Source: a virus. From it: 33,775 bases of DNA. Shown in pieces: positions 14,617-17,561 of this stretch (position 1 is its first letter; each line of letters starts with the position of its first letter). The stretch is from positions 1-33,775 of the IMG/VR virus record IMGVR_UViG_3300048904_000075; one strand, 5' to 3'. Both the position numbers and the translations under genes were made by a program. The notes beneath the pieces were generated by a model that saw only the letters and a program-made list of their open reading frames with translations, made no database searches and had not been told where the DNA came from.

Positions 14617-14680
14617 TGGCCGGTGCCAGGATTGGGTTACGGTTCCGACGTAAGGGCGGTTCGACTCCGTCCATCGGCCA
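14617..14680 (+). other. tRNA-like element lacking a normal D arm
   Basis: A 64-base element with a perfect B-box/T arm (GGTTCGACTCC; stem 14655-14659 with 14667-14671, loop TTCGACT) joined directly to an outer stem of up to 9 bp (14617-14625 with 14672-14680, one G-U). A middle arm can fold two ways: 14632-14636 with 14644-14648 (loop TTACGGT, anticodon ACG), or 14637-14641 with 14647-14651 base-paired around GTTCCGA (anticodon UCC). Only 6-11 bases remain where a D arm should be, so it is not a standard tRNA. It is followed at once by TTTTT and may also end transcription of the secreted-protein gene. No CCA end is encoded in the tRNA register. Confidence 0.5.
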
Positions 14681-14683
14681 TTT

Positions 14684-14709
14684 TTCGCAGTAAAAACACC
14701 TCTTATAAT
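14684..14709 (+). promoter_or_regulatory. Phage promoter P1 of a five-copy family
   Basis: TTCGCA followed by GTAAAAACA and the -10 TATAAT (14704-14709). It matches the family pattern CGCA-N2-R-AA-W-AC-W-N5-YATAAT-R, with 18 bases from CGCA to the -10. The upstream TTTTT is the tail of the tRNA-like hairpin. It drives the 30-residue membrane peptide at 14741. Confidence 0.75.
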
Positions 14710-14855: not shown

Positions 14856-14880
14856 TCCCTTAACAAGGGATTCTCTTTTT
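14856..14880 (+). terminator. Terminator after the 30-residue peptide
   Basis: TCCCTT-AAC-AAGGGA hairpin (14856-14870) followed by TTCTCTTTTT. The T tract abuts the CGCA of promoter P2, so terminator and next promoter share bases. Confidence 0.75.
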
Positions 14881-14904
14881 CGCATGAAAAACATGGTTCA
14901 TAAT
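14879..14904 (+). promoter_or_regulatory. Phage promoter P2 of a five-copy family
   Basis: TTCGCA, TGAAAAACA and a CATAAT -10 (14899-14904), with 18 bases from CGCA to the -10 as in the other copies. No gene follows directly: a U-tailed hairpin (14907-14950) and a long folded RNA region come first, then the gene at 15115. Confidence 0.75.
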
Positions 14905-14906
14905 AG

Positions 14907-14950
14907 AGAGGAAGACTAATGTAAGTCGATAATACCTCTACTTTTTTTTT
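14907..14950 (+). terminator. U-tailed hairpin directly downstream of P2 (terminator or attenuator)
   Basis: AGAGG (14907-14911) pairs with CCTCT (14935-14939), enclosing a small GACT/AGTC hairpin, and nine T follow (14942-14950). The left arm lies at or before the predicted start of P2 RNA (near 14911). The hairpin is therefore complete only in RNA coming from upstream, and P2 RNA may read through it. Confidence 0.55.
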
Positions 14951-14952
14951 CA

Positions 14953-15096
14953 GTGGGCTGGAGGGAATGGATGGCCTCGTTTCTTCAGGGATGACAAAAG
15001 GTACTAGGTACCGCTGACCCTAGGCCCCAAATCATCCGCCTTGGCGGGGGAGAGCGGATATATGTTCGCCGAGTCTGTCCATTCCCTCGAGCTCAC
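14953..15096 (+). ncRNA. Long structured RNA region before the 15115 gene
   Basis: Two 19-base arms (14953-14971 and 15078-15096) pair along their length with one mismatch and one G-U; the core GAGGGAATGGA/TCCATTCCCTC is perfect. Inside are GGTAC-TAG-GTACC (15000-15012), GGATGA/TCATCC (14989-14994 with 15032-15037), GGCCT/AGGCC (14973-14977 with 15022-15026) and ATCCGC/GCGGAT (15034-15039 with 15054-15059). GGCCT/AGGCC and GGATGA/TCATCC cross, so they form a pseudoknot or alternate. The right arm ends seven bases before the SD of the next gene. No known riboswitch or ribozyme class is recognised. It could be a regulatory leader or a stand-alone RNA. Confidence 0.6.
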
Positions 15097-15114
15097 CAAA
15101 CTAAAGGAGGAAAA

Positions 15115-15300
15115 ATGTCCACACCTGCTGGTCCCGAGAGGACCTTGGCCAAGCTGTGCATGGAGTATTTTGGTGAGTCCAGAAAGATTACGACCACTGA
15201 GTACAAGGAGCTCACCCGTCAGGATCGCGAGGAGCTCAGAGAGGAGTTCATCAAGATGGGGGTGAACGTGGCGCCGCTCCCTGTGCTGAAGACTGAGTGA
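15115..15300 (+). CDS. Small hypothetical protein, 61 residues
   Basis: The start is an ATG after a strong AAAGGAGG. The 61-residue product is charged and helical (YFGESRKITTTEYKELTRQ, then DREELREEFIKMG), with no membrane segment or catalytic motif. It is the first gene after the long structured RNA region and overlaps the next gene by four bases (GTGA), so the two form a pair. The family is not recognised. The E/R-rich central helix would fit a small adaptor or anti-host protein, but this is open. Confidence 0.6.
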   Translation: MSTPAGPERTLAKLCMEYFGESRKITTTEYKELTRQDREELREEFIKMGVNVAPLPVLKTE

Positions 15301-15480: not shown

Positions 15481-15506
15481 TTCGCAGAGAAAACTTATCT
15501 CATAAT
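15481..15506 (+). promoter_or_regulatory. Phage promoter P3 of a five-copy family
   Basis: TTCGCA, GAGAAAACT and a CATAAT -10 (15501-15506), with 18 bases from CGCA to the -10. The last base of the -10 is also the first base of the left arm of the terminator-like RNA at 15506-15575. Confidence 0.75.
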
Positions 15507-15575
15507 AGAGGGAAGAATCGTCTCCTCCCGGAGACGAGGAAACCGTAGTAGCCGCTACGGACCCTCTATTTTTTT
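15506..15575 (+). ncRNA. Three-way-junction RNA with U-tail overlapping P3 (terminator or small RNA)
   Basis: Outer stem TAGAGGG/CCCTCTA (15506-15512 with 15562-15568) is followed at once by seven T. It encloses two perfect hairpins: CGTCTCC-TCCC-GGAGACG (15519-15536) and CCGTAG-TAGCCG-CTACGG (15543-15560). In RNA from the 15115-15479 genes this is a complete terminator. RNA starting at P3 (predicted near 15513) would lack the left arm, keep the two hairpins, and could continue into the 15597 gene. If P3 starts earlier than usual, the result would be a 65-70 base small RNA. Confidence 0.65.
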
Positions 15576-16538: not shown

Positions 16539-16736
16539 GTGAGCATCGAAATGGAACTCGAAGAGGATGGGCAAGTTCGAGTGCGTATCGATAGAGGTGG
16601 AGAGCGTGCGATTTCAGATGTGATGGATCCGATGGATCTCATCCGGAAGGTTGCCGATACGGCAATGATGGATCTGGATGATATCGAAGAGAAGTGGGAC
16701 GGCGACGAAGAGGTTGTCGAGGAGCCCAGTGCTTAA
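16539..16736 (+). CDS. Small acidic protein, 65 residues
   Basis: I choose the GTG at 16539, six bases after GAAAGGA; upstream codons overlap the previous stop. The product is acidic, with a VRVRIDRGGERA strand, an ISDVMDPMDLIRKVADTAMMDLDDIEEKW helix region and an E-rich tail. No family is recognised. It lies in the DUF6353 block and overlaps the start of the next gene by eight bases, which indicates co-translation. Confidence 0.55.
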   Translation: MSIEMELEEDGQVRVRIDRGGERAISDVMDPMDLIRKVADTAMMDLDDIEEKWDGDEEVVEEPSA

Positions 16737-17250
16737 GAAAACGATCACGTACGAAGATTTCAACGGAGAGACGGTAAATGAAGATTTCTTCTTCCATCTC
16801 TCCAAAGCTGAGCTCGTGGAACTGGAAATGAGTCACCAAGGAGGCTTGGCTGAATCTCTGCAGAAGATCATCGCTGATGAAGATGGCAAGAGCATTATTG
16901 CCGAGTTCAAGAACATCATCTTGAGCGCCTATGGTAAGCGATCTGAAGATGGGAAGAGATTTGTCAAAAATGCAACAATTCGTGAAGAGTTTGAGTCATC
17001 CGAGGCCTATTCCGCTCTCTTTATGGAGCTCGTTACTGATGCGGACGCGGCCGTCGAGTTTATCAACGGGATTGTTCCAAGTAATCTCGGAGAGGAGGCA
17101 GCGAAGGTTACAGGAGCGGATCTCGAAGTGGTCAAGCCGCCAAAGCCTCAAGTGATGTCGAGGGCGGAAGTTCGGAAGCTGAGCACTGAAGACATGCAGA
17201 AGCTCGGCGCACGTGTAGCTGCTGGCGAAGTCGTAATCTCAGGTGAATAG
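16729..17250 (+). CDS. Conserved phage protein (FNG...ED..F.L..AE family)
   Basis: A 173-residue protein starting at the GTG at 16729. It opens KKTITYEDFNGETVNEDFFFHLSKAELVELEM, then has GGLAESLQKIIADEDGKSIIAEFKNIILSAYG, GKRFVKNATIREEFESSEAYSALFMELVTDADAAVEFINGIVP, and a Pro-rich linker before SRAEVRKLSTEDMQKLG. This ordered pattern occurs in siphophages of Gram-positive bacteria, where it has been annotated as hypothetical and sometimes as tail-assembly-chaperone-like. I cannot confirm the latter; the true chaperone here is at 2189. It is all-helical after the first strands and has no membrane segment. Confidence 0.55.
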   Translation: MLKKTITYEDFNGETVNEDFFFHLSKAELVELEMSHQGGLAESLQKIIADEDGKSIIAEFKNIILSAYGKRSEDGKRFVKNATIREEFESSEAYSALFMELVTDADAAVEFINGIVPSNLGEEAAKVTGADLEVVKPPKPQVMSRAEVRKLSTEDMQKLGARVAAGEVVISGE

Positions 17251-17261
17251 GAGAATATCTA

Positions 17262-17519
17262 ATGCAGACTAGTCAACTCAGTCTTCTCAAGCTCGCGACA
17301 AATGTTGTTGCCAGTGCCAGTGTGTGGAAGGTCGTCAACGACGTGATTCGTCACAACGTAAGTGTTCAGACCACTGCAGATGCAGTCAAGGTCTGGACGG
17401 GAAGCTTGATTATCGGCTCGATGATCGCTGACCAGGCTTCTCAGCATGTGAACAAGAACTTCGATAAGGCAGCCGACTGGCTCGAGAATCGTAAGGGCAC
17501 CGAAAACGTCGTAGAATAG
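17262..17519 (+). CDS. Small membrane-associated protein of the DUF6353 block
   Basis: The 85-residue product follows AGGAGA and an ATG. It has a weakly hydrophobic stretch at residues 44-58 (VWTGSLIIGSMIADQAS) and an amphipathic C-terminal helix (VNKNFDKAADWLENRK). It may sit at the membrane or bind the neighbouring membrane proteins. The family is not named. It ends the first part of the block, and promoter P4 begins sixteen bases after its stop. Confidence 0.5.
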   Translation: MQTSQLSLLKLATNVVASASVWKVVNDVIRHNVSVQTTADAVKVWTGSLIIGSMIADQASQHVNKNFDKAADWLENRKGTENVVE

Positions 17520-17535: not shown

Positions 17536-17561
17536 TTCGCACAAAATACATAGGGTATAAT
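17536..17561 (+). promoter_or_regulatory. Phage promoter P4 of a five-copy family
   Basis: TTCGCA, CAAAATACA and TATAAT (17556-17561), with 18 bases from CGCA to the -10. A perfect dyad, ATAGGGT/ACCCTAT (17550-17556 and 17565-17571), brackets the -10. It drives the 46-residue protein at 17586. Confidence 0.75.

Follow-up and report, generated by a model that had tools for sequence, protein, structure and literature searches.

The GOLLD and ROOL RNAs are structured phage and prophage RNAs of unknown function that often lie by tRNAs (PMC12286853), and RNA C and RNA D of phage T4 are small stable RNAs, likewise of unknown function, in the phage tRNA cluster (PMC9697503); the T4 record (NC_000866) gives their lengths as 139 nt (rnaC) and 119 nt (rnaD). 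The HDV-like theta ribozymes of gut phages are also small structured RNAs associated with tRNAs (PMC10879173), and in type III toxin-antitoxin and AbiF systems a protein gene has a structured RNA next to it, which can be pseudoknotted and can be present in two copies (PMC12373285).

Here, we analyzed a 33,775-base virus record (IMG/VR IMGVR_UViG_3300048904_000075; the window, meaning the whole of this stretch) that carries tail genes as well as one for a DNA primase-polymerase (phrog_4210), the relatives of which are found in Gordonia, Rhodococcus, Streptomyces, and Arthrobacter phages. Positions 14953 to 15096 (plus strand) hold an apparently undescribed folded RNA which, judging from sequence comparison, is strongly conserved in many unrelated bacterial viruses. 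We class it as a new family in the loose grouping of structured phage RNAs of unknown function, with no homology to known RNAs as far as tested. The initial annotation had not recognized its class, and neither did Rfam: a covariance-model search of the whole window against the 4227 families of Rfam 15 gave no match at the gathering threshold, none of the known riboswitch aptamer classes in Rfam matched, and permissive scans with the element and two relatives returned chance-level matches only. Nor did we find a description in Rfam 15 or in the open-access literature searched (subscription papers and supplements lay outside its reach).

With GOLLD and ROOL, the new RNA has in common that it is a structured RNA carried by many phages, a resemblance by circumstance and not by homology; they differ from it in size (several hundred nucleotides) and in fold, and although both are in Rfam, neither matches the window RNA. 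T4 RNA C and RNA D are also small phage RNAs and are of similar length. We rejected them as homologues, given a best full-model score of 8.1 bits (E 0.18, filters off) and the absence of the GACAAAA/ACAAAUC core; R1, the covariance model described below, found no match in the whole T4 genome. The theta ribozymes are built as an HDV-like double pseudoknot, an architecture apparently different from that of the new RNA, and the Rfam scans gave no match to the HDV family. The AbiF RNA is in Rfam (RF03085), and the window RNA does not match it; no AbiF- or ToxN-like protein was seen among the neighbors scanned, the 61-residue protein encoded next to the window RNA having no such match, and most members of the new family have no small-protein neighbor.

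Members of the family

The first related contigs were reached through proteins encoded downstream of the RNA. Their upstream regions have a core in common, GGRAUGACAAAA...ACAAAUCAUCCG, within surrounding DNA that differs. IMG/VR was scanned for this core with variable gaps, matches being kept if their flanking six bases pair, and this yielded members in many unrelated contigs. R1 was built from 14 members; run on the fetched loci, it identified 42 matches, spread over about 40 viral contigs (E 8e-21 to 1.4e-3), the weakest of which (L138, 22.8 bits) is doubtful. In the window, R1 matches the conserved core at 14974 to 15075 (plus strand; 63.1 bits, E 8e-15). A near-identical twin record (L001) sat in the training set, however, so the fair test lies with members outside that set. 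Ten such sequences scored 50 to 68 bits: L032 (67.7), L109 (61.9), L029 (61.2), L013 (61.0), L097 (55.8), L078 (54.1), L110 (52.6), L063 (51.4), L178 (50.2), and L242 (52.1), the last of which had been found only through its protein. The window RNA has the P1-P5 junction and the GACAAAA/ACAAAUC core of the family, as well as its pseudoknot (CCGCUGA with UUGGCGG, P3 loop with P4 loop). Family members are ca. 105 to 145 bases long.

The search patterns included GACAAAA, CAAATC, CG, and AAANCG, so that part of the conservation of those letters is a product of selection; six-base pairing of P2 served as a filter. None of P1, P3, P4, P5, the spacing, or the pseudoknot figured in the patterns. A blastn search with the window locus and two members (L121 and L061) revealed no homologous RNA in 50,697 phage records, and R1 scans of the whole records of 15 isolated phages (relatives of the window among Gordonia, Rhodococcus, and Streptomyces phages, T4, two cyanophages, and relatives of other member phages) gave no match, an empty answer that constitutes weak evidence. 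When 84,980 bacterial and archaeal genomes were scanned for the patterns, nine matches came up, none of them with the remaining structure.

Some carriers have more than one copy (three in G026 and two each in G003 and G004); a second match in G011 was discarded, as it resembles protein-coding sequence. One second copy in G003 (L265; G003:C1:27138-27278) is divergent, with ACAACG replacing ACAAATC, while its pseudoknot strands (CGCAAC/GUUGCG) still match, so that the family extends beyond what the search patterns capture.

Fold and pseudoknot

The initial annotation had proposed a large structured RNA at this position, and both folding energy and comparison bear this out. The minimum free energy of 14953 to 15096 is -68.2 kcal/mol, versus -49.9 ± 4.3 kcal/mol in dinucleotide shuffles (n = 200; z, -4.22), and none of the 200 shuffles folds as well; the closing helix was also found independently. 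A lack of compensatory changes among relatives had been named at the outset as grounds for rejecting the structure, and we found the opposite. Over 27 pairs in five helices, the R1-fitted alignment has 331 cells with compensatory changes, versus 109 after shuffling (0 of 500 shuffles did as well). In this alignment, 89.5% of cells pair (62.0% when shuffled), and pairing falls to 38 to 47% if partners are slid by one column. The compensatory changes include G-U pairs and occur across diverse contigs. The R1-fitted alignment leans toward the model; MAFFT alone gave the same signal for P2 and P4, and for P2, P4, and P5 in the training subset.

This comparison shows a junction made up of the closing stem P1, the long P2-P3 arm, whose A-rich internal loop reads GACAAAA/ACAAAUC, the short hairpin P4, and the hairpin P5; in the window, all of these parts lie on the plus strand. 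The 5′ arm of P1 (14953 to 14979) pairs with its 3′ arm (15070 to 15096) with a few mismatches, as indicated by the fold, by independent helix detection, and by covariation. A 19-base closing stem had been described here; its arms do pair, and the pairing extends inward to 14979/15070, but family-wide only the inner part is kept, with five inner pairs that covary. Outside the modelled core, mean pairing does not exceed that between unrelated members, and the 19-base stem is thus particular to the window RNA and a few others. We considered a processing stem of the RNase III type for the whole family and dropped it, the outer pairing not being general. One member (L264; G002:C1:3120-3201) has a long outer closing stem, apparently perfect, with 26 pairs by eye, along with an insertion in the P5 region.

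The best-conserved helix of the family is P2, in which GGAUGA (14989 to 14994) pairs with UCAUCC (15032 to 15037); 98.8% of its cells are paired, with up to six pair types per position. This helix had been recognized from the window sequence. Another that had been drawn as crossing it (GGCCU/AGGCC, 14973 to 14977 with 15022 to 15026) fails, being broken in a 93%-identical relative (L004/L002; AGCCU/AGACC), and 14973 to 14979 belongs to the closing stem instead. Beyond P2 lies the conserved A-rich internal loop, CAAAA at 14995 to 14999 and CCAAA at 15027 to 15031, whose columns (GACAAA/CAAATC) are near-invariant. The P3 hairpin follows (15000 to 15026; 15000-15001 with 15025-15026 and 15004-15008 with 15019-15023) and is seen in the minimum-free-energy fold, with covariation at all five modelled pairs. 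P4 is very short (15039 to 15050; 15039-15040 with 15049-15050), its loop being a pseudoknot strand, with 95.2% of cells paired and two-sided changes at 4 of 4 pairs. In P5 (15054 to 15069; 15054-15058 with 15065-15069), which has GCGG at its 5′ end, 90.2% of cells are paired and 6 of 7 pairs show two-sided changes.

The initial annotation was right to suspect a pseudoknot and wrong about its place: the true pairing joins CCGCUGA in the P3 loop (15011 to 15017) to UUGGCGG in the P4 loop (15041 to 15047). The best complementarity between the two loops of the same molecule averages 14.2, versus 11.1 ± 0.39 when P4 loops are exchanged among members, and in this alignment-free test 0 of 10,000 swaps reached the own-loop value. 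The pseudoknot is present in 28 of 37 members, in 27 different sequences, with its midpoint 13.5 ± 1.2 nt after GACAAA; the P3 loop is missing in the L005/L006 clade and in a few others. Comparison of the members shows that the P3 loop, kept at a fixed distance, pairs with the complementary P4 loop, which folds the arm back into a compact shape.

Genomic setting and the small protein

The carriers are of several kinds. L067 has a T4-type portal (phrog_213) and L049 a T4-type capsid protein (phrog_138); L110 has a cyanophage-like portal, and L123 has rIIB. The window, L112, and L115 belong to the phrog_4210 primase-polymerase lineage, while L063 has a PolA-type polymerase (phrog_17) and L078 a different one (phrog_405). 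What lies downstream of the RNA likewise varies by phage: a small protein, a T4-type virion protein region, an exonuclease-like protein, or a tRNA. A consistent class of downstream genes, as expected of a riboswitch, was not seen across the members. In a relative of the window (L080), the RNA lies ca. 2.2 kb further on, between homologues of the adjacent window genes 16678-17250 and 17262-17519, which indicates that the RNA moves or is gained and lost. Neighboring genes are on the same strand as the RNA in 48 of 61 cases (P 8e-6, with crude gene calls).

Four members (L029, L035, L063, and L097) lie 8 to 34 bases from a tRNA. As a family-wide rule, tRNA proximity is not significant, with five cases seen versus 3.0 expected from the tRNA content of the same loci (P 0.11). 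Separately, we noticed tRNA-like segments with clear T arms, not called by ARAGORN, directly 3′ of the RNA in L123 (3737-3880) and L112 (4767-4900). A further tRNA-like segment in the window (14618-14679) has a 7-pair acceptor stem, a 5-pair anticodon stem with UCC, a T arm, and almost no D arm; ARAGORN missed it as well, and the Rfam tRNA-Sec model gives it 22.4 bits (E 0.038), which is below threshold.

In the window, as had been noted earlier, the RNA directly precedes the Shine-Dalgarno sequence of a 61-residue protein gene (15115 to 15300, plus strand, ATG at 15115), with an 8-base gap to the AGGAGG read at 15105 to 15110 on the same strand. This protein belongs to a small family of 55 to 61 residues; remote relatives of it are encoded next to the RNA or close to it in L006, L115, and L112 (reciprocal profile E values of 1.7e-8 to 4e-3 among 24,047 translations). 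A profile search of IMG/VR proteins found it in 8 contigs, all of them RNA bearing, including L242 and L244, which were found through the protein alone. In all, 10 RNA-bearing records have it (a count that includes the window, L002, L005, and L006), versus 0 of 40 RNA-less control records. Most RNA-bearing contigs, many of which are fragments, do not, and in L008, L178, and L244 the gene and the RNA are far apart. Phages with the protein are of the phrog_4210 kind or close relatives of the window, a single lineage, so that the link between protein and RNA may reflect shared descent only; as independent evidence of partnership, the co-occurrence is weakened accordingly. No convincing relative was found by tblastn in the 50,697 phage records, nothing in Pfam or PHROG scored above threshold, and the low-confidence AlphaFold model (three helices; mean pLDDT, 71) has no significant fold match. 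In the window lineage, the protein may be a partner of the RNA.

Possible functions

We consider it about evenly balanced whether this is a trans-acting phage RNA carried as movable cargo rather than a switch for one gene. Differing neighbors, changing positions, presence in tRNA arrays, and extra copies all speak against a single-gene switch, and the unchanging geometry points to a shape recognized by something. The RNA would be transcribed in sense with phage operons and would then be cut out, or would persist, as a stable RNA; its action in trans would depend on its shape, the most probable mode being attachment to a factor of the host or the phage (ribosome, tRNA, or defense related); phages would gain, lose, and move it as cargo, and in the window lineage the small protein, whether beside the RNA or elsewhere in the genome, may be its partner. 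Put more broadly, and with moderate confidence, an undescribed RNA class of unrelated tailed phages may act in trans, by itself or together with a small phage protein, as a compact pseudoknotted particle that affects host translation, RNA turnover, or defense.

A structured RNA family with a covarying pseudoknot, spread over unrelated phages and absent from Rfam, is uncommon, and earlier phage RNAs (packaging RNA, GOLLD, ROOL, and theta ribozymes) each started a line of work of their own. The size suits routine probing and structure work, R1 is a model ready for annotators, and the RNA and small protein of one lineage offer a testable pairing. Were the RNA to act on host translation or defense, it would add a nonprotein tool to the phage repertoire.

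The window locus itself invites a different reading, in which the RNA is a cis-acting leader (a riboswitch-like sensor, mRNA stabilizer, or attenuator) controlling the gene directly downstream. It ends just before a ribosome-binding site and begins 48 bases after a promoter-like motif (TTCGCA-N14-CATAAT, 14879 to 14904, plus strand), and in many members an ATG with a ribosome-binding site follows no more than ca. 100 bases on. The initial annotation had gone further, reading promoter, conditional stop, folded domain, and gene as one unit. Beyond the window locus this is not supported, because members adjoin tRNAs or unrelated genes or sit elsewhere in related phages. The preceding terminator-like hairpin is a weak one (-7.9 kcal/mol; z, -0.75). 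In the relative with 93% identity, different DNA lies upstream of the RNA, and another hairpin and U-run come right before the RNA. Given the variable downstream features and positions, we think a cis-acting leader unlikely for the family, although it stays plausible at the window locus, where the RNA lies between a lineage promoter motif and a ribosome-binding site. A catalytic RNA, whether self-cleaving or of another sort, that processes transcripts of the phage or adjacent tRNAs seems improbable to us: its near-invariant bases do cluster at junctions and in internal loops, as those of ribozyme cores do, some phages have closely spaced copies or copies directly before tRNAs, and the theta ribozymes near phage tRNAs offer a precedent (PMC10879173), but no Rfam ribozyme matched, no conserved cleavage-site context was identified, and there is no strict link to tRNAs.

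Covariation of the two loops within a sequence is also what kissing between identical copies would require, and the RNA could in principle self-assemble through them, as do phi29 packaging RNA and the GOLLD and ROOL cages. An intramolecular fold-back, however, fits the constant distance of the P3 loop and the shortness of P4 at least equally well, and the carriers have ordinary portal and terminase proteins, so that we hold intermolecular assembly to be very improbable. Finally, stable hairpins are common in the intergenic regions of phages, and the fold might be a chance structure, a DNA-level repeat, or a transcription terminator; compensatory changes that include G-U pairs, a covarying pseudoknot, and R1 matches outside the training set already refute this explanation, which we give almost no weight.

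The promoter-like motif is itself recurrent, with four exact copies in the window and seven with at most one mismatch, versus 0.3 expected. Copies of the lineage form, TTCGCA-N14-YATAAT, lie at 14684-14709, 14879-14904, 15481-15506, and 17536-17561, and the motif also occurs in regions of Gordonia phage Pherobrine and Rhodococcus phage ReqiPoco6. Two of the window copies are immediately followed, at the predicted transcript start, by a hairpin-closed segment ending in a U-run (14905-14950, weak by energy, and 15507-15572, in which AGAGGG/CCCTCT closes two inner hairpins). Such units are possibly attenuators or short RNAs; similar ones, with different interiors, are found in L005, L006, L007, and L008.
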